A stretch of 41,068 bases of DNA from a virus: the IMG/VR virus record IMGVR_UViG_3300005541_000090, positions 1 through 41,068 of that record; one strand, given 5' to 3'. Positions 841 to 38,983 of this stretch are shown piece by piece. The first letter of the stretch is position 1. Each line of letters opens with the position of its first letter. The position numbers were made by a program, and so were the translations under genes. The notes under the pieces are model-generated. The model was not told where the DNA came from, ran no database searches, and saw nothing but the letters and a program-made list of their open reading frames with translations.

Positions 841-1671
841 TTATGTAGACTGTAGGGGAGGGTATTTCAGCAATAGTCTGGTCACTGCGCCGACTATTTT
901 GTAAATATCACGAACGGATTTATCCTCCTTTTTGAATTGGATATCCAGTTTTATATATCCATTCTCTTCACTAAAGGACACCGATGCCGAGTCCTCTTCA
1001 TACTTTAGACTACCCTCACGAGAGAATCCTTCGTAGTGCTGACGAGCAAACCAGCAATAAATAAAATGCGCGACCTCAGGAGTGCTAAAACTACCCAAGA
1101 AGGCTACCCTTCCTTTGTATCTCCCTTGCGCGTCGTAGGAATTATTTTTATTCTTGCAGACTCCTTTTAATCCTATCTTGTTGTTGGAGTGGATATTTGT
1201 ATTCATGCTGTTCTGTGATTTAGTCGCTACGCGCAGGTTGCTACGACGATTGTCGAGGGTGTCACCGTTTATGTGATCGGCTACTCTAATATCATTCCTG
1301 GATAAGCCTAGAATAGTCCGAGCTAGAGAATAAATGCGACGCTCTTCTGATCTTCGTCCATAGGCGTAGCCGCGCAGACAATGAACTTGGGCGAACTCAC
1401 TTATAAGATCGTAATCCAACGCCCATATAACCGTTGATTTGCCCTTACTTAGCATAACTTTGCGACATGCAACGCCATCCACAAAGAAAGGTGTTGTATC
1501 TACGTAGCGAGGAAATTTAGCGTGATCTCTAAAATATAGAAGAGGGACACCTTTCACCTGTCCTCGTTCAGTTCGCGTTCGATCTGGAACACAAGTCCTA
1601 TAGTTACATCCGCAATGACAATAACCATAAGGAATTGGAAATGGTGACAAGGCAGTGCTATCGTGGTTCAA
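841..1671 (-). CDS. HNH homing-type endonuclease with AP2-like domain
   Basis: 276 codons. The N-terminus has a Cys cluster (GYCHCGC, about residues 16-22). The HNH core is DHINGDTLDNRRSNLR (about 132-147), followed by an AP2-like DNA-binding segment (LKGV...FLGSF, about 167-215) and an extra 60-residue C-terminal tail absent from the other copies. Family members make site-specific breaks and spread by homing. The His usually found just upstream of the core (HR in the other copies) is replaced by Ala (SLARTI), so activity is uncertain. The start appears to be TTG, with GGAGG about 11 nt upstream. The gene is visibly richer in A+T than its neighbours, consistent with recent acquisition. It shares its N-terminal module with the genes at 10397 and 38192. 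Confidence 0.85.
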   Translation of the reverse strand: MNHDSTALSPFPIPYGYCHCGCNYRTCVPDRTRTERGQVKGVPLLYFRDHAKFPRYVDTTPFFVDGVACRKVMLSKGKSTVIWALDYDLISEFAQVHCLRGYAYGRRSEERRIYSLARTILGLSRNDIRVADHINGDTLDNRRSNLRVATKSQNSMNTNIHSNNKIGLKGVCKNKNNSYDAQGRYKGRVAFLGSFSTPEVAHFIYCWFARQHYEGFSREGSLKYEEDSASVSFSEENGYIKLDIQFKKEDKSVRDIYKIVGAVTRLLLKYPPLQST

Positions 1672-3066: not shown

Positions 3067-6000
3067 TGCGGTACTCCCGGCTGTGCTGCTGGACGTTCTC
3101 CTCTACTATGCAGCTTACTCGAATAGGCATCCGCGTCATCAGCATTATCGAATATGCCCAAATGTTCTCCCGTCTTCAGGTAGTGCTGCCAAGCCGCCTT
3201 GAACATTGCTTTCTCAGCGGCACTTCCTTCAGGAGGCTTCTTGCCGTCTGGGGTCAGGAACTTGCCGTTAACGATTGTGGGAACCAGCACCTCGTGCCCC
3301 TGCTCGTCTTCAAAGGACGTTGAGTATTCGCTGCTGTGCGTGCCGTCCGCGTTCTGTACGACGGGACGGTTCCATATAGGAAGGTTACCGGGCTTGATTA
3401 GCCCTCTAGGATTGGGGATGACCATGAAGTCCGTAGGCTGGCTAGCCGCCTGCGTGGGCTGTGCCGACTGCTCTCGATGATCCTGCTGCCCCCCGTCCCT
3501 CTTCCTGCTAGACCCGTTCGCGAATATAAAAGTCACCACGCCCGGTCCCAGTTTCAGCGGCTTTCCCTCCCTTTCCGCTTCCTTGACCATCGAGCGCATC
3601 CCGTCGGCGATCCGCACCCGATCCGCATGCGGTACCTTCTGCAATGTCTCCAGTTCTGCTGTAGGCGGGCGCGTGAACCATTCCCGCACCCCCGGTCGGT
3701 CTAGCAGCCGTTGCAGCACGAACGGCGTCAGTTCCCCAGCCGACCATGCCAGCCCCGTGACCTCCAAGCTGGGATGTGCGGTCAGTGCGGCAATCACCGT
3801 CCCGATCGGAGCCGCCACCAGCCGAGCAATCTGGAACTTATTCACCGTGGTCCAGTTGCGCAGCTTGTCGGTCACGAACTTGTCGCGTAGTTCGCGGGTG
3901 TTGATCTCGGGGACTTCGACTGGTTTGCCTGGCTTGGGCTTAGGGTATTCTGCCGGAGTAAACTCCTTCTGCTCGGGACGGGTGCTGGCTAGATCGCGTG
4001 CCTTGGTCCTGGCGTCTGCCAAGCGTTCGGCACTCTTATCAGCCTCCTTGCGCAATTCCTCCGGGCTGGGTAGTTCCTCCAATCCTGTTTGCAAGTTGTG
4101 CATGTGCTCGATCAGCTTGTGCGTCTGCTTGCGGTAGCGATAAGAAGGCTCGCCGGAAATCTGCTTGTCGGTGAACTGCGTTTCCGGCTTGGTAGAGTCT
4201 CCTTCGAGGATGGCCTTGGCGCGTTTGGCCTCGGCGGGTTTCAATTCCTGATATGGCTTGGTGGCGTTGTAGTAGTCCTCTGCTTGTAGTCCCTTAGCAA
4301 TAGGTGATCCCGATTCAGACGGGCCGGTGTAGTCCCTGAATCCCCTGGCGTATTCCTTGTACTGCCTGCGCAGCAGGCTGTGCTTCTTGGCCACGTCAGG
4401 GTCCACTTCCTCGGCCAACTTTTGCATGCGCTGGCCGAGCTTTTCGCGGAACTTGACCACAGCCTGCCGCACGTCGGGTGCCGTAGCCGGATTGCCGATA
4501 ATCCTTCCAGCTTCCTGATAATAGCCGTCGAGATCCGAATACTTGGCACCGGGCAGTTCCTCGCCAGCAGCGCCATACTTCTCCAGCATCTCCCGCTCGT
4601 CGTCGGCCAAGTCTTCCAGTTCGCGTGGAGTAGGCGCGTGCCTAGCCCCCTTGCCAGTACGCCCAGTCTTTAACCCTCCCTCTCCCTTGTCTTGAACGCC
4701 GCCAGCACGCTTGCCTATGTCCTCGAACAGTCGCACGTTCTCACGGGATCCTTTGAACTGTCCCTCAGCCTCGTCCACGTCACCGTCGAGCGTCGCGTAC
4801 GAGATAGTATGCGCCTTGCCCGTCTCAGGGTCGGGTGCATCAAGCCTCTTGCTGACGTCTGCGAATTCACGCTTGAAGTACGACTTGGCCGCGTCGTTGA
4901 TTGCCTGGACGCGCTGCGCGATGGCTTGGCGGGTGCGTTCGAGGGAGTCGGCGAGTTTGGTTCGCTTGACTTCGACTTTCTGCTGGCGGTCAACCAGATC
5001 GTCATGAGCCTTGCGCGCCGAGGTAACAACGGTATCCCCCTCGACAAAAGGTTCTTCGGCGTTGGCTTCACGCTGCGCGGCGGCGGTAGCGCTTTTGGCC
5101 TGCAGTCGTGCCGCCTTGTTGTCGGCGTCTATTTTCTCCTGTGCGGCTCTGTTGGCCTCGTCGACCTTGCCGCGCGCCAGCAGAGTGGCCTCGTCGGCTT
5201 TCTGGTTGGCTGCCAGCGTCTGCTCGCGAGCCTCGTGCGCCGCCTCAGCCTGCTTCGTCACCTCCGTCTTCACCTGCCGCTCGCCAGCCCCGACGACGTT
5301 CTGCGCGGCCTTGCGCACGCCTTCCGGCACCTTGCCTACCCGCTCTGTCAGCGCGCTTCCTACTGCTTCCTGAACCTTTCCGGCACCGTGGCTGACTGCT
5401 GCTACCGCCCCCAGCCCCAGCAACGACCCTACGAGGTTCTGCTTGGCTAGCCTGGGGTCCGTCTTGGCGTCCTGCTGGTACTGGTCGTAGAGGTTCTTAG
5501 GAAGTTGCGTCGGGTCGATCAGGTCGAGGAGTTCGTTGGAGTTGCCGGTTTCGAGGCTGCGGCGGTAGGCGGAGGCCACGTCGGCAACGTAGCCGGGGGT
5601 CGCGTAGAGGGTGCGACCAGCAGCGCGGAGAGCATTGTTAATGTCGGAGCGCGCGGGGGCAGCGGGGTTGGTTGGCTCGGGCTGGAGCGCGCCCGTGACT
5701 GCCTTCCCGGCGCGCTCCAGTACCGTCGGTCCCTGCCCCTCGTGCGTCTGGTCCTTGTGGTAGCGCGCTTCCTCGTCGGGGTGGAGGCGGTAGCCGGCGG
5801 CTTGGGCCTCGGTGATCTTGCTGTAGGGGACGGCGATCTCTGGCTTGGTAGGGATGCCTTCGCGCTCGTCGTAGCTGCCCATGCGGTAAAGGCCCTCGCC
5901 GCGGGGGTTGGCAGTGAGGGAGGCTGGGGCGGCGGCGAAGGAAGCGGAGGAGGCAGAAGTCCCACTGGTGCCAGTCGCGGGAATAGCCTTCTCCAGCACC

Positions 6001-10396: not shown

Positions 10397-11066
10397 ATGA
10401 ACCTGCTTGAACAGGAAACCCACCCCATTTTCAATATACCCTACGGACTTTGCCATTGCGGTTGCGGTGAGAAAACAACGCTTGCTCCCCATAGCGCTTC
10501 GAGAGGTGGATGGATAAAAGGACAACCCATTCGCTATCTCGCAGGACATAATAAAAGACTAAGAAGACCGCCTTTAGATGACAAGCTATTTGTTTTTAAA
10601 GGAGAATTATGCCGAAGGATATCACTAGGTAAAGTACACACGATAGTTAGCGAAGCGGACTACGACTTCCTCATGCAGTGGACATGGAAATCGTCTGGAC
10701 CAGCAAACGGTCCTTATTATGCCCACTGTTTAGACTATGAAACCAAGAAGACCTATAGAATGCATTGTCTGATTGCTAAGGCTCCAGAAGGCTTAATGGT
10801 AGATCATCGTAATGGAGACACCCTCGACAACAGAAGATCAAACTTGCGTCCCGCGACTCACAGTCAAAATTGCGCAAATCAGCGGGTTAATAGACTTAAC
10901 ACTAGTGGGCATAAAGGAGTTTCGCGCTATAAAAATGGGATGGAAAGTAAGAATTGGGTATCAAGGAACCTCTATATATTTAGGTGTATTTGTACACTTT
11001 GCGGATGCTGTTGAAGCGTACCGAAGGAAGGCGCTAGAACTGTTCGGAGAGTTCGCTAGGTTCTAA
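10397..11066 (+). pseudogene. HNH homing-type endonuclease, frameshifted
   Basis: The open frame gives 205 residues: Cys cluster GLCHCGCGEKT (about 17-27), KGQPIRYLAGHN (41-52), MHC, the HNH core DHRNGDTLDNRRSNLR (136-151), then GHKGVSRYKNG. There the AP2-like domain breaks. Dropping one G of the GGG at 10937-10939 restores WKVRIGYQGTSIYLGVF and an ending LELFGEFARF, giving 222 codons that close normally at 11066. Either the gene is newly inactivated or the base is a sequencing error; as written the protein ends in a spurious Cys-rich tail. It lies on the plus strand inside minus-strand tail genes and is A+T-rich. Core and catalytic residues are intact. Confidence 0.85.
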
Positions 11067-30741: not shown

Positions 30742-30930
30742 TCATCGACGGCCTCGGCTGCTCCTGCGACGGGAGGCTCGTGCCTGACTCTTGCGCTTAC
30801 CAACTCGTTCTGGCAGGCGTCGCATATTGGGAGTCTCGTGCGCCCACTTGCGCGCAGTGCCGCGCTTCAGTTCACCCCGAGACTCCTTGGCAAACATCAG
30901 ACGTTGCTGGGCCTTGCTGCGGAATGGCAT
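30742..30930 (-). CDS. Small basic phage protein (MPF-KAQQR type)
   Basis: 62 codons, GGAGG 5 nt before ATG. It starts MPFRSKAQQRLMFAKES and has KWAHETPNMRRLPERV: a short family common in phage genomes, of unknown role ('MPFKSKAQQRFMFAK...ETP...LPE-V'). The C-terminus is Ser/Arg-rich. The ATG is the final codon region of the HNH gene. Confidence 0.75.
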   Translation of the reverse strand: MPFRSKAQQRLMFAKESRGELKRGTARKWAHETPNMRRLPERVGKRKSQARASRRRSSRGRR

Positions 30931-31658
30931 TACTTCCTCCCGCGTGCTAATGTTCCGTCCCGTAGACCTTCAATTGCTGCATTTAATAGGTCTCGCTTGA
31001 CGCGAGCCTTCCGTGATTTCCAAGCTGCTGTTATCGCTTTGACACCATGCGCATGCCTTTCTTCTGGCGTGAGCATTGCCCATCGCGCGGCTACCTTTCG
31101 TCCCACACTCTTAAAATGCTCAGGGCGTCTGTTGCTATTTTGAACTCCCTGAGTAGTCCATCTACAATTTCCAATGGGTGGACAGCAAATCGGACACAAA
31201 TAGCCCTTGTTATTATCGCGCCGATCTAGCGTAAGTCCATCAGGTCTTGTTCCAACGTCAGCGAAAAATTGTTCAAATGAGTCCCGCCAATGGTCGCAGA
31301 CCGTAATTCCTCGTCCACCGTAATTATGCCATTCTGGATTTCGCGGGTTTAGACAACGTCCCTTTAGGCTAGTCCATGTTTTGCTTTCAGCGGTTCGCGC
31401 GCCGCGCTTACTTTGACCATGTTTTATGCGTGCGGAAACTACTTCACGCTGTATACAGCCACAACTACGAGTAGGTCTTAGTGAGGCAATTAGAGCGTCC
31501 GCACGCACCTCTCTTACATTTCCACAATCACACTGACACAAGCAAAATACTCGTCTGGTGATCGCAGGGCTAAATACAGCCAAGGCCAATAATCGCCCAA
31601 AGCGCTGACCGACCATAGGCATATAGACATCTGAAATTCGGCCCATAGCCAGAATCAT
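30930..31658 (-). CDS. HNH homing-type endonuclease with N-terminal zinc module
   Basis: About 242 codons from ATG 31658 (start uncertain: 31733 GTG, 31646 and 31622 also in frame; no clear ribosome-binding site). MVGQRFGRLLAL opens a module that holds CQCDCG and SCGC, then NYGGRGITVCDHW, LTLDRRDNNKGYL, a CPICCPPI insert, and GNCRWTT...NRRPEHF. The family is that of the gene at 27855, with which it shares the Cys insert. It begins just after the portal stop and lies on the same strand. Confidence 0.85.
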   Translation of the reverse strand: MILAMGRISDVYMPMVGQRFGRLLALAVFSPAITRRVFCLCQCDCGNVREVRADALIASLRPTRSCGCIQREVVSARIKHGQSKRGARTAESKTWTSLKGRCLNPRNPEWHNYGGRGITVCDHWRDSFEQFFADVGTRPDGLTLDRRDNNKGYLCPICCPPIGNCRWTTQGVQNSNRRPEHFKSVGRKVAARWAMLTPEERHAHGVKAITAAWKSRKARVKRDLLNAAIEGLRDGTLARGRK

Positions 31659-31686
31659 AGTCCAAACCCAAGTCGTGTTAAAAGAT

Positions 31687-33615
31687 TTATTTACCTTTCT
31701 TTTTAGTAGACGCGGCCTGTCCGCTGAGAGCACTCATAGCTAAGTTTTGTAGCGCTTCTTGCGCCATCTCCTTCTCGTTCTCGGCGATGTCGATCATGGC
31801 CCCGGCGGCGTTCAATGCTCGGAGTACATTTTTCTTTGACAATAGTCCTTGCCGCTGTAGTACGACTGCCAGTTGCGCTCGCTGTTCCTTGTCGAATGAC
31901 AGCGCTGACCCAGCCCGGATGGAGAACTGGAACTTGCGCACGAACTTCTCCGGCAGCATGCCGCCTTGCATTAGCGATCCATACATAGGAGAGAAGTCCC
32001 ACGTCGAGAGGCCGCGCTGGCCGAGGATGGCGGTGCGGTGGCCAACCGAGTAGAACTGGAGCATGGTCGAGACCACCATCTGCCCCGAGCGCGACATGAA
32101 GTTTTCTAACCTGCGGCCCATCAGCCGGACCATCGCCGAGCGCGAGTTCTGGATCAGTTCCATCGTGTCGTGCGACGGGATCTGCTCCTTCTGGGCTGCT
32201 GCGTCCACGGCCGCCGACCCCGTGGTCTGGTCCATCTCACGCATCAGCATCTGCGTGTACCACTGCGCGGCTGAGGGGAACTGGGGCTGCTCGCGGAACT
32301 TGGGCGGCTGGCCGCCGGAGCGCAAGGGGTTGAACTCGATCTTGCCGCCGGAGATAGTGGTCGAGAGGTTGTCGAGGTCGGAGCGCGAAATGGCGTCGGT
32401 AGGCGTGATGATGGTGGGAGTCAGCCCGGCTTTGATCGTTTCGAGCATCCCGGCCATCAGGCGGTTCAGCACGTCTTGTGGCCCGATGAGGTTACCGGTG
32501 ACAGACATGGAGCCAGACCCAGCCGAGGTGCCCTGCCAAGCGGTGCGCAGCGGGAGGAATTCTACGTACGGGCCAGGAGGGGAAGTGGGCGAGCCAAGAT
32601 GGAAGTACGGCACGCAGGTATCGTCGAGCACGCGGCCCCCGGCAACGGAGAGAACGCGACCGCGGGGGAACAGCGGACAGCCCGGCTCGACGAGGTAGGA
32701 CCAGTTGGCGCGACGAGGGCCGACGCGGATCGTGGTCGAGGTCTCGTTCAGGGAGGGGTCGCGGAACCAGTACAGGCGCTCGGTGACGGAGGGATAGAGG
32801 GTGTCCGACGTCCCTCCCAGCCCTCCCCTCACGCCCAGCACCGACTGCATCTGTGGCGAGAACTTCGACCACTGCTCCGAGGAGATAGACGAGGGACGCA
32901 TCGGTTTGAGCGCGCTGGGGTCGGAGCCGGAGTCGGGGCGGACGAGGTCGGCCACGGGACCGTAGCGGCGGCGCAGCGCCTCGAGCGTCACCGTGCGCTC
33001 CTCGATCAGGCACTCACATTCGTCGAGAGGACCCTCGCCGCCGAGCTTGTAGAAGTTCAGCGGGTTCACGGCGAGAAGTTGGACGTCGCCCATGCCTCCA
33101 GCGAGATAAGGGTTCCATTGGATTTTGCCGACGGCGTAGGCTAGGAGCCCGAACCCGACGATATCTTGGAAGGCGTCATGGTAAGCAGGATTGGCGGCCC
33201 ACGGTTCGAGCAGGGAGAGAAGCAGGCGCTGAGTCTCGCTGTAGCCGTCCTCCGTGTCGTAGACCTTGATCTGGGGTTCAGGCTTGCCGTCGGTCAGCAG
33301 GGAGACTAGTTCCCAGTATTGCCGGAACATGCGGTTCGTGACAGGGCGCGAGTTGCCGTAGGCCGTGGGCCGGGCTGGCCATTGCGAACCAGAGAGATAC
33401 TGGACGATGCGCGGGATCAGGCGGCGGATCGGGGAGGAAGCGGCGGAGTCGCGGGCTTGTTGGTAGGCGCGGGAGGACCAGTCGACGACGTCTTGCTCGA
33501 GGCGGGACCACGGGAGGGGGAGCGAGCGAGAACGAGTGTGATGGAAGGAGGCGGCGCTGACCACGTTCGATGAGAGGGGCGAGGCTGAGGACGTGGTCTG
33601 CGCGGGCGTGGCCAT
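31687..33615 (-). CDS. Portal protein
   Basis: 642 codons. Recognisable as a podovirus portal: N-terminal region with RRLIPRIVQYLSGSQWP and FRQYWELVSLLTDGKPEP, a central GFGLLAYAVGKIQWNP and LLAVNPLNFY, and a C-terminal helical barrel region (MELIQNSRSAMVRLM...LENFMSRSGQ) ending in basic Lys residues. It forms the dodecameric ring at the head vertex through which DNA is packaged and ejected. ATG 33615 follows a promoter with 7 nt between -10 hexamer and start and no Shine-Dalgarno, so it is probably leaderless. Confidence 0.85.
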   Translation of the reverse strand: MATPAQTTSSASPLSSNVVSAASFHHTRSRSLPLPWSRLEQDVVDWSSRAYQQARDSAASSPIRRLIPRIVQYLSGSQWPARPTAYGNSRPVTNRMFRQYWELVSLLTDGKPEPQIKVYDTEDGYSETQRLLLSLLEPWAANPAYHDAFQDIVGFGLLAYAVGKIQWNPYLAGGMGDVQLLAVNPLNFYKLGGEGPLDECECLIEERTVTLEALRRRYGPVADLVRPDSGSDPSALKPMRPSSISSEQWSKFSPQMQSVLGVRGGLGGTSDTLYPSVTERLYWFRDPSLNETSTTIRVGPRRANWSYLVEPGCPLFPRGRVLSVAGGRVLDDTCVPYFHLGSPTSPPGPYVEFLPLRTAWQGTSAGSGSMSVTGNLIGPQDVLNRLMAGMLETIKAGLTPTIITPTDAISRSDLDNLSTTISGGKIEFNPLRSGGQPPKFREQPQFPSAAQWYTQMLMREMDQTTGSAAVDAAAQKEQIPSHDTMELIQNSRSAMVRLMGRRLENFMSRSGQMVVSTMLQFYSVGHRTAILGQRGLSTWDFSPMYGSLMQGGMLPEKFVRKFQFSIRAGSALSFDKEQRAQLAVVLQRQGLLSKKNVLRALNAAGAMIDIAENEKEMAQEALQNLAMSALSGQAASTKKKGK

Positions 33616-33622
33616 CCGAGGC

Positions 33623-33651
33623 AGTGTAGCGTAGGGAGGGCGGTAGGGCTA
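33623..33651 (-). promoter_or_regulatory. Repeated 29-bp promoter element, copy 7
   Basis: Minus strand: TAGCCC-TACCGC-N11-TACACT, 17-bp spacing. Its TAG is the stop codon of the methyltransferase. 7 nt to the portal ATG. Confidence 0.6.
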
Positions 33652-35094
33652 GAAAGAAGGAGGAGGAGGAAGGCATTCCAGAACGGCGGCTAGGAAGTGT
33701 GCAGCCGCTTGCGCGTTGATCGCGTTACCGTAGCCGCGCTGTCGTCCCACTCGATTGGGTACGCCATGAGCCAACGGGAATGTGCCGGATTCAACTGGCC
33801 TCCAGCGTTCATCCCGGCAGAGGAGCCAGTCAGGACGGTGCCAGAAGCCGTTAGTCGGGCCGGGCCGCAGGTTACTAGGGATTGGTCCTTGTAGCAGCCG
33901 GGAGTTACCGAGGGATTGTTGTAGTCCGTCAGCCATGCTTCCTCGGGCAGGTCCTTCTGTGCTTTCGAGGCGTAGACCTTGCCTGCCGTCTCGTCCGAGT
34001 CGTGCGAACGTGGACAGTTCGGATTGGCCCAGCCGCTCATCATCGCTGCCTGACACAAGTCCTGCGGCGTCCCCTTGCGCGCGATCTCCGCCAAGGTCCC
34101 TTCCATCGTACGGACGTTCTTCTCCCCGTCTGCCAGACGGGGAGCGGGCCAGCCTGCCAGTTGTGCCGAATCGTTCAAGTTCTGCATCCCGTGACCTTGC
34201 GCTTTCTTCGCTGCTACGTATTCCTCCGTGTGCGCAGGGAAGTGGTCCCGTGCTTGAGGCGAGGGCCAGCCTACAGTCATCGCCACCTGTTCCAAGTTCA
34301 CTGTCGCCTTGGTACCGTCCGGTCGTACTCCCGTTGAGGAGGTTCCCTCGGGCCACACTTGACCCCCGCTGGGCAAGGTCGGTGCTGGCCAGCCGGAGAG
34401 CACTGCCGCCCCCTCTAAGTCCATCCCACCCGTGTGGGATGGACTTGGAGTCGTATTCGGCCCTCCCGTTGGCAGGTTCGGCGCAGGCCATCCCGCTTGT
34501 ACTGCCGCTCCCTTCAGAGTCAAGTTCCCACGCATCATTACTTCTGATCCCTGCTCCCCATCCGCTAACTTCGGCGCAGGCCACCCACCACAACCTTTGC
34601 CTGATAATCGGCGCACCGAAGCCCGTAGCGCAGATATCCGCCGCCCAGCAGGCGTAACCCGCTCCTTCCAAGTCAGCTTGTACAAGGTCGAGCCAAGCAA
34701 GGCCGTCCGGGCTTGCAACCTGCTCGCCAAAGACTGGAACATCTCTGGGCTTGCCGTGCTCGATGAGGTGGAAGAAGGCTGGCCATAAGTGCCGCTCGTC
34801 AGACATCCCAGTTCTTTTGCCTGCCGCGCTGAAAGGCTGGCAGGGACAAGAACCTGTCCAGAGGGGGCGAGAGTCGGGCCAGCCAGCAAGGCGAGCGGCG
34901 TAACTCCAGCCTCCGATCCCGGCGAAGAAATGGCACTGGGTGTATCCAGCGAGGTCGCTGGGCAGGATGTCTCTGATGTCTCGTTCATCCACGTCTCCGG
35001 GGGCAATAAGGTTGGCTGCGATGAGGTTGCGCAGCCACTGGGCCGCGAAGGGGTCGAGTTCGTTGTAGTAGGCTTTAGGCGTGCGGAAGGTCAT
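33649..35094 (-). CDS. DNA (cytosine-5) methyltransferase
   Basis: 481 codons. [11 protein letters not shown] (54-64, motif I, binds AdoMet), [13 protein letters not shown] (motif IV; catalytic Cys in PCQ, 84-86), GEQV (motif VI), [10 protein letters not shown] (motif VIII, 163-172), and [11 protein letters not shown] (motif X, near 454-464). The region 175-430 is the variable target-recognition part and is Gly/Ser/Arg-rich. The enzyme probably methylates phage DNA to escape host restriction; no cognate nuclease is present. Start 8 nt after TAAGGT of a TTGACA promoter, no Shine-Dalgarno. A second long frame runs inside it. Confidence 0.9.
33690..34988 (-). CDS. Overlapping frame with GWPAP repeats inside the methyltransferase gene
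   Basis: 432 codons in the +1 frame from ATG 34988, GGAG 6 nt upstream. GWPAP-like motifs recur six times at 33-41-residue spacing (GWPAP four times, GWPSP, GWANP), each after a hydrophobic helix such as LEGAAVLS or LNDSAQLA. The start has [20 protein letters not shown] and [12 protein letters not shown]; the end has [20 protein letters not shown]. From memory, these motifs recur in phage-encoded proteins of the same kind, so both frames seem conserved. Function unknown. If only one frame is translated, the methyltransferase frame is the likelier. Confidence 0.6.
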
Positions 35095-35102
35095 CTAAGT
35101 CA

Positions 35103-35132
35103 ACCTTAATGGAAGGGACCGCGCGCTGTCAA
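35103..35132 (-). promoter_or_regulatory. TTGACA promoter of the methyltransferase
   Basis: Minus strand: TTGACA, 18 bp, TAAGGT, then 8 nt to ATG 35094. It overlaps the stop codon of the upstream gene. Confidence 0.5.
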
Positions 35133-35884
35133 CGAAGATTGCGCGTCACGAACGCCGGCCGCTCATCCGCCACGGGCGCCCCACTCCCAAACGAGAACGG
35201 CGCCGCCTGTTGCTCCGACCCGTCAGCCGGGACCAGCAGCCCGGACGCGTTCTCGACGAGGGACGAGAACTGGGCGCGCGGGGGCTGGAGGGGATTGCCA
35301 GCGGCGTCGACGGGGAGGGCGTGCGCGACGGAGGAGGCAGGATCCGGTACCGTAGCCACGCCAGCCGGAGCCATCACCGCAGCCTGTGGCAGGTTCACTC
35401 CCAGAGCGCGGAAGAAGTTAGCCAGCATGTCCTCCTTCATCTGGAGTTCCTTCACCTTGTCGCGCAGCTCCTTCACTTCCTTAGCCAGCGCCAGCACTTC
35501 CCGACCGCGCTTGATGCCTAAGGCTGCCATCTCCCGCGCCCATTCGCCTTCGATGAGGACGGTGTCGGCGTCGGCCAAGGCAGTCAGGCACGAGCACAAG
35601 GTGGTAGCAAGGTTCTGAGGGAACTTGTTGCGCAGGGCGGCAAGCACCTCGGGGTAGACCCAGACCTGATGGACGATCGTGTTCGGAGGCTGACGCTCGG
35701 GCTGGTCCGGCTTGTCCATGCGCGGGTGCAGAGACATCAGGCGGTCGTAGGAGTAGGTGTGGCCCATGCCAGCGCAGCGCAGTACCATGCCTTCCTGCTT
35801 GCTGTGGAGCTGGCGGACCATGCGCGAAGGAGCTTGGGCGCGATCGCACGCTGGACACCATAAAGTGCCTTCTAAATTTGCCAT
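35129..35884 (-). CDS. Zinc-ribbon / coiled-coil hypothetical protein
   Basis: 251 codons. The N-terminus has LWCPACDR, then a basic stretch and VLRCAGMGHTYSYDRLMSL: two pairs of Cys (and His) about 25 residues apart, a zinc ribbon of a type seen in phages. Residues 130-165 form a coiled coil (VLALAKEVKELRDKVKELQM). The C-terminus is disordered. No enzymatic motif. Between TerL and the methyltransferase, with an inverted-repeat element 12 bp upstream. Confidence 0.6.
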   Translation of the reverse strand: MANLEGTLWCPACDRAQAPSRMVRQLHSKQEGMVLRCAGMGHTYSYDRLMSLHPRMDKPDQPERQPPNTIVHQVWVYPEVLAALRNKFPQNLATTLCSCLTALADADTVLIEGEWAREMAALGIKRGREVLALAKEVKELRDKVKELQMKEDMLANFFRALGVNLPQAAVMAPAGVATVPDPASSVAHALPVDAAGNPLQPPRAQFSSLVENASGLLVPADGSEQQAAPFSFGSGAPVADERPAFVTRNLR

Positions 35885-35896
35885 ACGCTCTCCAGT

Positions 35897-35914
35897 CTAC
35901 ATTATTTCGTGTAA
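35897..35914. promoter_or_regulatory. Inverted repeat CTACA-N8-TGTAA
   Basis: One mismatch to the TTACA-N8-TGTAA pattern. It overlaps a TAGACT (-10-like, 35894-35899) that stands 9 nt before ATG 35884. Confidence 0.5.
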
Positions 35915-35940
35915 GGTCGTCGTGGTCCGTCGCGTTCGTC

Positions 35941-38211
35941 CTAGTACTCCCCCCAGTCCCCCAGATCCCCGCCTCCCAGATCCCCTAGCGCCCCGTCCCA
36001 CTGCGCCGCCTCAGCCCCCGGCGACGCGGACTCGAACATCGACTGCAAGCGGCCAGTGGCAGCGCCATAGTGGGTGACAATGTCAGGGGTAATCAACCGG
36101 TCCTCCATCCCCCCGGCGTACATCTCGCGCTCCAGCCCCGACCCGTGGTGGATGACAGAGAAGGCGGTGTTGGCTTTGCTGACGCGGATCGGTCGCACGG
36201 TCCACGTCGGATTAGCCGCCAGAACCGCTTCCGCCTCGGCCAAGGTCCGGAACTGTCGCATCTGCTGGTAGAACTGGTTGTAGACGCCGTAGATCAGCGC
36301 GCCGACGGGAGGGTGCAGCGCACGGAGGAGAGTGGGAGAGGACGCCGAAGCGCCTGTGTCAGTCTGGCTCCGGCGTAACTCCGGCATCGTCTCGCGCAGG
36401 CAGTAGTGCGAGATGCAGCCAGCCACGGCAGCGTCGTCGTGCCCGCCCAACCCCGCGAACGAGATTCCATCCTTAACACAGCGCCGCAGTTCGTCCAGAA
36501 GGTACTGCGACCGGATGACGATGCTGTCCTCGAGGAGGGACTCAGCCATACGCGTCAGCAGGTACGGCTTGGTCTTGCTCGTGGTCTGCCAGTGCATATA
36601 GGGAGCGAACCGGCTGGCAGGGCGGTCTAGTTGCCGCGGGCGGTACAGCTTCGGGTACTCCAGATCGTTCATCAGCGCGTTCGCGCACGCCATCCCCTCC
36701 TTGGCGTACTCGACGGCGATCTCGGCCTGATTGAACCACGTGCCCAGCGCGTAGATGATCTTCGAGAAAGCCAGTGGGGCCTCGTAGCCGACCCATTCCG
36801 CGACCTGGTAATCCGGCTCGACCCCGTACCCGGCGCGAAAGACTTCAATCACGGAGAAATCGCCGCCGAGGATGCCGTCGCCCACGTCCACGCCAAGGTA
36901 GTAGTGCGAGGCGGGGTCAGGCTGCTCCCACGCGTACAGCCGATTGGTCAGCTCGCGCTTCTCCAGCGCCACGTCCGAGCGGTACAGGCCAACCGGGTCG
37001 AGCATGTAGTTGAGCAGGACCTTCGGCACCGCGCCCCGGCCTTGGAACAGGACCTCGCCGACCCAGTCCGGTTTGCGCACGTTGCGCTGCTGCTGCTCGT
37101 CGAGTTTGTGCCGAGGGAACGCGCCCATGCCGGAGGACTGGAACGCCTCTTGAGGGGTGATCGGGTAGGACTCGTAATGAGCGTAAGGGAAGCCGGTACG
37201 CGAGATCGACCGCTTGATGCCGCGGCGGCGCCAGTTCCAGAACTCGGGCGGAATCGTGTAGTGGTCCTCGCGCTGGACCTTCTCAGTAAAAGCGGCTTCG
37301 GTCTCAGTCAGGAGGAAGGGCTGTTCGCTGATTTTGATCGGGCGGCGACGGCGAGTGTCTTGGTAGGCGGGGAGGAATTCCGGCGTCCAGTCCGAGTCGC
37401 CCGCCATCGCCTCTTCCCAGAGATTGTAGAAGAAGCCCTCGTTGCCGAACGCTGTGGACTCTGCGAAGGCGATAGTATCGTCGGCGTTCATGGACGGTTC
37501 GATGTCACCTGTGTAGACTTCGCCAGAGGCCCAGCGGGAGACTTCGGAGAAATGGGCAGTACGTACTGTTCTGCCGATGGCAACGCCGGTAGCTCGGCCC
37601 GCATGAGTAGACACAAATACAGAACCTAGCCCCGGGTCAGTTGAACGCGCAACATCCTTTCTCCCCATTTCTATGTATTCACCTTTTGTCTGGTACAAAA
37701 TTTCAGGGGCCATCCAAAACGGGAGAGAGTTCAAAGCTAATTTAAATTTGCGCTGGATATGTGCCGCGACGTCCGGGGCCTGTGCAACGGATACAGTGTA
37801 TGCATTAGGAAGAAGAATGGTTCGCCACGCGACTACGCCATTGCACCACTCAGTCATTCCCGACTGCCGTTCCTTGAGGATGATGATACGGGCTTGGCCG
37901 TCTTCCTTCATGAGCCGGGACAGGGTGCTATCCACGATCTCTTGGTGATCGCGGAAAGGGTGAAGACAAGTTAAAACTCCGTGCTCTGGCTGGATCACAA
38001 AATAGTTTTGAAGGAAGTAACGGCGATCTTCTATACAATGTTTAATCTCGTCTCGCACGAATTGTAGTTCGATGGAGGAGAACATAGACCACGCCAGAGC
38101 ACGTTGATTCTCAGGGGTGTCTTTAGGGGCTTGTCTACGCGCTTGTGATAGCCTTTGCGCCAAAGCCTCAATCGCGTCGTTAATGTACGGGTCAGCCCGA
38201 TGCAAGCGCAC
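35941..38211 (-). CDS. Terminase large subunit
   Basis: 756 codons from a GTG start. ATPase domain: LKERQSGMTE (about 112-121, a divergent Walker A) and AHFSEVSRW (about 219-227, Walker B-like with catalytic Glu). Nuclease domain: GVDVGDG (440-446, first metal Asp), VEYAKEG (Glu501 region) and HDDAAVA (591-597, last Asp). It forms the packaging motor: it cuts concatemeric DNA and drives it into the portal. The HNH gene before it overlaps by 20 bp. Confidence 0.9.
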   Translation of the reverse strand: MRLHRADPYINDAIEALAQRLSQARRQAPKDTPENQRALAWSMFSSIELQFVRDEIKHCIEDRRYFLQNYFVIQPEHGVLTCLHPFRDHQEIVDSTLSRLMKEDGQARIIILKERQSGMTEWCNGVVAWRTILLPNAYTVSVAQAPDVAAHIQRKFKLALNSLPFWMAPEILYQTKGEYIEMGRKDVARSTDPGLGSVFVSTHAGRATGVAIGRTVRTAHFSEVSRWASGEVYTGDIEPSMNADDTIAFAESTAFGNEGFFYNLWEEAMAGDSDWTPEFLPAYQDTRRRRPIKISEQPFLLTETEAAFTEKVQREDHYTIPPEFWNWRRRGIKRSISRTGFPYAHYESYPITPQEAFQSSGMGAFPRHKLDEQQQRNVRKPDWVGEVLFQGRGAVPKVLLNYMLDPVGLYRSDVALEKRELTNRLYAWEQPDPASHYYLGVDVGDGILGGDFSVIEVFRAGYGVEPDYQVAEWVGYEAPLAFSKIIYALGTWFNQAEIAVEYAKEGMACANALMNDLEYPKLYRPRQLDRPASRFAPYMHWQTTSKTKPYLLTRMAESLLEDSIVIRSQYLLDELRRCVKDGISFAGLGGHDDAAVAGCISHYCLRETMPELRRSQTDTGASASSPTLLRALHPPVGALIYGVYNQFYQQMRQFRTLAEAEAVLAANPTWTVRPIRVSKANTAFSVIHHGSGLEREMYAGGMEDRLITPDIVTHYGAATGRLQSMFESASPGAEAAQWDGALGDLGGGDLGDWGEY

Positions 38212-38983
38212 GCAGACATTTTACCTTAATTGCATCGCACCATTCAGGATAATTCGTGATCTCTGGAAAGTTCAGGCAGGCAAACTCTTTGAACAACAAT
38301 CGTGCGGCGCAGTCATAGGCCATAGCGGCCTCCTCGATGAGAGGACGACAGCCCAAATAAATTTCAGCCCCGTGATACCTAATGCTTGATTTGAAACTCG
38401 TCATACTCACGCCCTTGTAAGGGAATTTACCGTTGCGGTGAGCACGCCTGTTTTGTACCTGTTGATGATGTGTAGCAGGTCTTAGATTAGAAACACGGTT
38501 ATCGAAGCAATTGCCGTTTTTGTGGTCTATCGTTAGTCCCGGCGGAGGAGGCAACAAATGCCTATGCAAGGCCACTTGTGCCTTCCTAACACCGTTATCG
38601 CTTCCGTCATGACGTACGGCATACACCTTTCCGCTACGAGGCTCCAAGTGCGCATACCACCGCCACTGAAGTAACTCCTCATAACGGTCATCATCGACGA
38701 TGAAGAAGTATCCTTTGCTCAGAGGAAGCCAACGACAAGGCTCATTATCCAACAAAAACGGCGGCTCGTATTCGGGAATACCAACTGGTTTCTTTGCGTT
38801 GTGCCCATTGATGTACTGCAACGGAAACCCAGCATATAGATTACGATCAGGCATGCGCTGCCGAGCCAGTGGAGTCTTGTTCCTACAACGACAATGGCAA
38901 TATCCAAAAGGAATGCCACAATCTCGTTTGCCACACACGCACAAAGTTGGGTCAGGGGGTAGAATCCTATGAAGGGGTGTCAT
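38192..38983 (-). CDS. HNH homing-type endonuclease with AP2-like domain
   Basis: 263 codons. N-terminal Cys module (GYCHCRCRNKT, about 27-37; FPLQYINGHN, 53-62), LHRHLL, the HNH core DHKNGNCFDNRVSNLR (153-168), and an AP2-like segment (YKGVSM, RYHGAEIYLG, 189-212). It lies between the small and large terminase genes, a frequent place for homing endonucleases. The Shine-Dalgarno lies in a hairpin just before the ATG. Same subfamily as the genes at 841 and 10397. Intact frame and catalytic residues, so possibly active. Confidence 0.9.
   Translation of the reverse strand: MTPLHRILPPDPTLCVCGKRDCGIPFGYCHCRCRNKTPLARQRMPDRNLYAGFPLQYINGHNAKKPVGIPEYEPPFLLDNEPCRWLPLSKGYFFIVDDDRYEELLQWRWYAHLEPRSGKVYAVRHDGSDNGVRKAQVALHRHLLPPPPGLTIDHKNGNCFDNRVSNLRPATHHQQVQNRRAHRNGKFPYKGVSMTSFKSSIRYHGAEIYLGCRPLIEEAAMAYDCAARLLFKEFACLNFPEITNYPEWCDAIKVKCLRALASG

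Follow-up and report, generated by a model that had tools for sequence, protein, structure and literature searches.

Does one stretch of viral DNA encode two proteins here and, if so, what does the second one do? The window, by which we mean the whole 41,068-nucleotide stretch of viral DNA that was analysed, carries a complete C5 DNA methyltransferase gene with another long reading frame inside it. A 432-codon frame shifted by one base had been proposed there in a first-pass annotation, and both its coordinates (33690-34988, minus strand) and its register (+1 relative to the methyltransferase ORF at 33649-35094) proved correct. The frame had also been credited with an ATG and a GGAG of its own; both are present, and SD-like 4-mers accompany 62 of 111 nested starts vs. 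45 of 169 control ATGs. However, second-frame constraint is absent over the first ~20 residues, which makes this ATG the presumed start. The two frames and the candidate signal are as follows:

33649-35094, minus strand: C5 DNA methyltransferase ORF, proposed catalytic (alpha) subunit, 481 amino acids (Pfam, PHROG 363, model)
33690-34988, minus strand: nested +1 frame, proposed specificity (beta) subunit, 432 amino acids (PHROG 1008, 80/80 loci, purifying selection)
34995-34998, minus strand: GGAG, possible ribosome-binding site for the nested gene, six bases upstream of the ATG (sequence)

The methyltransferase gene is flanked by a P22-like portal gene (31687-33615) on one side and, on the other, a terminase-like ORF (35941-38211; identified by eye, without a Pfam hit) in a minus-strand region spanning 31687-38211, and in Rhodobacter phage RcIroh a nested pair likewise adjoins the terminase genes. 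The window also contains four low-G+C islands (841-1671, minus strand; 10397-11014, plus strand; 30930-31733 and 38192-38983, both minus strand) with a third-position G+C of about 0.4-0.5, the genome standing near 0.62. Their ORFs resemble, by eye, free-standing HNH/homing endonucleases, and three share an IPxGxCHC zinc-like motif.

Conservation of and selection on the nested frame

The suspicion that a chance frame would be unlikely here was borne out by synonymous recoding of the methyltransferase (random codons, protein fixed), which placed a mean of 6.7 stops in the nested frame and left it open in 1 of 3000 recodings, and by its register in other genomes. Because our first set of 80 IMG/VR loci had been fetched with the nested frame and was biased towards loci having it, a second set of 80 phage loci was fetched with the methyltransferase N-terminus only. 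Both proteins were found in 80/80 loci of the first set, always in +1 (tblastn); in the second, the nested protein was encoded in 80/80 loci with the +1 register kept, and 79 had no internal stop in the nested frame (the sole exception, L132, has one). Homologues therefore do not break the frame: its stops were otherwise confined to near its end, and the +2 frame was stop-ridden. Over the overlap, frames other than the two genes held a mean of 5 to 16 stops in homologues, the zero counts of the two genes in the same table being partly built in by construction. The ends of the nested protein, noted early on as conserved-looking, do contain invariant or nearly invariant columns (73 homologues).

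The arrangement extends well beyond these sets. The nested protein matches PHROG 1008 (4.5e-27) and sequences in 190 phage records (including epsilon15, BcepC6B and Haboob), and nesting was also seen in most of the distant phages examined, which were reached by a search with a motif-IX-like peptide (Paenibacillus, Acinetobacter and Lacticaseibacillus phages, and mycobacteriophages Aubs and XFactor). Among the best 80 bacterial genome loci, 75 were nested and intact and the other five were interrupted copies; a free-standing nested gene was sought in bacterial genomes, and none occurred among these 80. Most of the records examined annotate one CDS only, both being annotated in Lily, Likha, K1G and PhiXhv-28. 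The nested arrangement is thus present in hundreds of phages and prophages and has been largely missed by gene annotation. In one locus (L111, around 3086-4460), a zinc-motif (HNH-like) coding stretch lies right behind the nested gene and is perhaps a homing endonuclease insertion.

Selection was assessed with a simple count, uncorrected for multiple hits, in which each change was classified by what it does in either frame; 17 independent gene pairs served for the codon tests and 33 pairs for a finer scan. Upstream of the nested gene, substitution rates at methyltransferase codon positions 1/2/3 were 0.059/0.047/0.323 (17 pairs); within the overlap they were 0.061/0.028/0.169 for the conserved core, 0.310/0.117/0.108 for the middle and 0.113/0.050/0.106 for the C-terminal part. 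The position rates reverse between core and middle, and the codon periodicity therefore switches frames. The ratio dNN/dNS, which tests the nested gene, was 0.43 in the core (bootstrap 0.31-0.52), 0.24 in the middle (0.16-0.32) and 0.33 in the C-terminal overlap (0.25-0.39), and the ratio dNN/dSN, which tests the methyltransferase, was 0.11, 0.84 (0.76-0.96) and 0.32, respectively. In the finer scan, the nested-frame ratio was 0.98-1.11 upstream of the nested gene and 1.24 in nested codons 1-20, dropping to about 0.45 by codons 80-140. Both frames are under purifying selection in independent gene pairs; that on the nested frame is real, sets in some 20-40 codons from its start and dominates in the middle, where substitutions track the nested frame almost entirely instead of following the methyltransferase frame only. 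The first-pass guess that the second frame shapes the low-complexity recognition region of the methyltransferase is borne out as well: in the methyltransferase frame, the region is near neutral (0.84) and predicted to be disordered. At the level of codons, these results document a long overlap of two same-strand genes, one that is widespread in phages and prophages.

Division of methyltransferase motifs between the two frames

The outer protein matches Pfam DNA_methylase (PF00145, 1.7e-8) and PHROG 363 (7.8e-78), and it contains motifs I, IV (PCQ), VI, VIII and X in order, with an HhaI-like fold; the variable region and motif IX do not lie within this polypeptide. The parts of the two proteins outside the repeats are:

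34897-34929, minus strand: alpha motif I, FAGIGG (motif location; invariant columns)
34819-34845, minus strand: alpha motif IV, PCQPFS (motif location; invariant columns)
34711-34734, minus strand: alpha motif VI-like FGEQVAS, a variant with GEQV (motif location; invariant columns)
34579-34620, minus strand: alpha motif VIII (motif location; invariant columns)
33889-34557, minus strand: alpha middle, residues 180-402, near-neutral filler kept open (pLDDT below 50; dNN/dSN 0.84)
33682-33735, minus strand: alpha motif X (motif location; helix, higher pLDDT)
34638-34691, minus strand: beta N-terminal segment, predicted beta hairpin (invariant columns; pLDDT 84-91)
33747-33803, minus strand: beta motif IX, near-invariant and absent from alpha (single-chain equivalent at about M.HhaI 271-308, weak)

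The model of the outer protein combines two ordered stretches, residues 1-175 and 446-475, with disorder at 180-402. Among PDB structures, M.HhaI and M.HaeIII match it best (Foldseek), over ~195 of 327 residues, the size of the catalytic domain. The top Foldseek match, level with M.HhaI, is 8yf3, a DNA cytosine C5-carboxymethyltransferase, probably by similarity of fold only. The motif IX pattern occurred in 0/80 outer frames of the second locus set and in most nested frames; outer frames in this set usually end with motif X (GNAI), and LNPxHSRWLMGxP is confined to the nested frame.

Searches of Pfam and NCBIfam returned no family covering the nested protein. An AlphaFold model of it alone had a mean pLDDT of 56 and found no usable match in the PDB, and its family gave only chance hits when compared with the PDB by sequence. 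Its identity is indicated by a group of single-chain actinophage enzymes, namely that of the Mycobacterium prophage prophiFVLQ01-1 (L256) and its relatives (L262-L265, L268, L269), in which motifs I-VIII, PTP repeats, QLNPRFAEWMMGWP and GNGVVP follow one another in one frame. Firecracker (L259) and three further loci (L266, L267, L270) are intermediate, with a +1 second frame that holds the repeats, motif IX and motif X. In profile comparison (hhalign), the window nested family aligned with the single-chain enzymes between motifs VIII and X (probability 94, E 1.5e-7, vs. 0.2 for the outer-frame family as control), and the distant nested proteins did so at 97.6 (E 2.9e-12). The L256 enzyme itself matches PHROG 363 and, at residues 257-444, PHROG 1008 (3.4e-49), each where expected.

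Within the single-chain profile, QLNPRFAEWMMGWP falls on M.HhaI 271-308, a weak (-0.4 bits) and colinear match that lies before the Gly-Asn motif X, and the assignment of motif IX in the nested protein rests on its colinearity with these single-chain enzymes. Since they carry the same segment between motifs VIII and X, the nested protein most likely serves a two-polypeptide enzyme as its specificity subunit, comprising the variable region and motif IX. The single-chain form presumably preceded the split forms. Two copies of another locus (L277 and L278, 2405-3172) lack much of motifs VI-VIII, their N-terminal catalytic part continuing in-frame into the part with the repeats and motif IX, and may represent a deletion derivative.

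Repeat cassettes of the nested protein

Six regularly spaced GWPAP-like repeats had been described in the nested frame, and we located them as W[PA][ASN]P at residues 135, 166, 199, 240, 279 and 319, with successive spacings of 31, 33, 41, 39 and 40 residues. They delimit the following cassettes:

34491-34583, minus strand: beta cassette 1, WPAPKLADG... (no recurring family found)
34392-34490, minus strand: beta cassette 2 (family F34)
34269-34391, minus strand: beta cassette 3 (family F9, 16 members)
34152-34268, minus strand: beta cassette 4 (family F28; 79% identical to a Pseudomonas phage Haboob cassette)
34032-34151, minus strand: beta cassette 5 (family F11, 16 members; 78% identical to a cassette of locus L232)
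33855-34031, minus strand: beta cassette 6, WANPNCPRS..., plus the connector to the C-terminal part (no recurring family found)

Cutting 162 nested proteins at WxxP yielded 457 units (median about 36 residues, 0-6 per protein), 400 of which fall into 31 recurring families. Two cassettes can be 92-97% identical where the conserved N-terminal cores reach only 56-68%; three or more ordinal positions are occupied by 16 of the families, and the median number of different neighbours per family is six. The cassettes are thus shuffled among nested proteins, the pattern expected of exchangeable recognition modules, and their place in the variable region suggests that this is what they are. Multispecificity of the cassettes is plausible. 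It is a serious if still tentative possibility that the nested gene acts as a library-like specificity subunit, whose WPxP modules would be swapped by recombination and address up to six DNA targets, and in which cassette number and type would predict the methylated sites. An enzyme that is split in nature and whose recognition cassettes can apparently be swapped would be useful for predicting phage methylation and for engineering split methyltransferases.

Two probable subunits from overlapping frames and their known relatives

Very probably, the locus encodes one C5 DNA methyltransferase as two pairing proteins from two overlapping frames, the outer catalytic and the nested conferring specificity. 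The outer frame would give a catalytic subunit whose first part holds S-adenosylmethionine binding, the catalytic PCQ motif and the region of motif VIII and whose last part holds motif X, a disordered linker joining the two. The nested +1 frame, presumably translated from its own internal start, would give a specificity subunit in which the N-terminal hairpin region is followed by WPxP cassettes in a row (the DNA-recognition/variable region) and then by motif IX. The two proteins would then pair into an active enzyme that marks particular DNA sites and probably protects phage DNA against host restriction. The overlap is usually annotated in one frame, and half of the enzyme is therefore often missing from annotations.

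Three other accounts of the nested frame deserve consideration. It could be no gene at all and instead a by-product of high G+C, codon bias and the conserved methyltransferase sequence, as long spurious frames do occur in G+C-rich genomes and a 291-codon antisense frame also exists at this place; however, the +2 and opposite-strand frames are stop-filled in homologues, the middle of the overlap is more constrained in the nested frame than in the methyltransferase, and recoding hardly ever leaves the frame open, so that we give this account almost no credence. As a pure artefact, the nested frame is ruled out by the selection tests. A separate overprinted gene with a function of its own, e.g. 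a regulator or an anti-restriction protein, would fit the frame's own start and SD-like site and the want of a curated Pfam or NCBIfam family for its product, but the nested protein shares homology with that part of single-chain enzymes which comprises the variable region and motif IX, provides the motif IX that its partner lacks, and has no free-standing copy among the best 80 bacterial genome loci; we regard this as very improbable.

Programmed ribosomal frameshifting, in which a shift into +1 after motif VIII would yield one fused enzyme, finds encouragement in the single-chain enzymes with an identical order of parts, and it was left open for the related split pair in Cluster O mycobacteriophages (PMC4351075). 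For the nested form, however, motif X lies in the outer frame and would be lost by a single shift, and nested selection sets in around residues 20-40, well ahead of motif VIII, in a region that the fusion would not use; for these two reasons a frameshift fusion is unlikely. The enrichment of SD-like sites at the presumed nested start speaks against it as well, and for the nested form we favour two products, the two-subunit enzyme set out above, over frameshifting.

Parts of this arrangement have been recorded before. The 'DNA methyltransferase' families PHROG 1008 and PHROG 363 represent the same nested pair, which is annotated in some records: Paenibacillus phage Lily (gp62/gp63, 'g62 internal gene'), Likha (gp51/gp52) and E. 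coli phage K1G (ORF31/ORF30). For these families and pairs, the papers searched go no further than annotation: we found in them neither separate roles for the two proteins nor a test of selection or a study of the cassettes, and for nested phage methyltransferase genes we found no analysis apart from the Cluster O paper (PMC4351075). There, the N- and C-terminal methylase parts of Corndog and Firecracker were described in overlapping frames, their products were not detected by mass spectrometry, and the choice between two products and a frameshift was raised and left undecided (PMC4351075). That pair has motif X on its second gene and is hence sequential, whereas the window pair is nested; the present reading offers a possible answer to the mycobacteriophage methylase puzzle of two products or a frameshift.

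Bacillus phages SPbeta and phi3T encode multispecific C5 methyltransferases with several recognition modules between motifs VIII and IX. The window pair likewise has several exchangeable modules in a row in its variable region, a position that suggests a role in recognition, but the Bacillus phage enzymes are single-chain. The genes of M.AquI are not known to be nested. Its smaller subunit holds motifs IX and X (PMC3404938). Like the window pair it comprises two polypeptides split after motif VIII, yet its layout is closer to the Firecracker-like loci (L259, L266, L267, L270).

The nearest precedent is M.EcoHK31I, which recognises YGGCCR and whose small subunit, of about 176 amino acids, is encoded in an alternative frame of the large-subunit gene. 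It is a natural two-polypeptide C5 methyltransferase with motifs I-VIII and X in the large subunit and motif IX in the small one, the recognition domain having been placed in the large subunit (PMC3404938). The window pair shares the small subunit nested in an alternative frame (+1 in all phage loci) and the same distribution of motifs; unlike M.EcoHK31I as reported, its recognition region would not be in the large subunit (ratios in the middle of the overlap of 0.84 for the outer and 0.24 for the nested frame), and its nested protein is longer (432 amino acids), built of cassettes and holds the whole variable region. By layout as described, the window pair appears to be of the M.EcoHK31I type with its variable region placed differently, which calls into question the reported placement of the recognition domain in enzymes of this type. 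Two-subunit nesting thus has a precedent in M.EcoHK31I; what differs is a whole variable region carried as cassettes in the nested protein.
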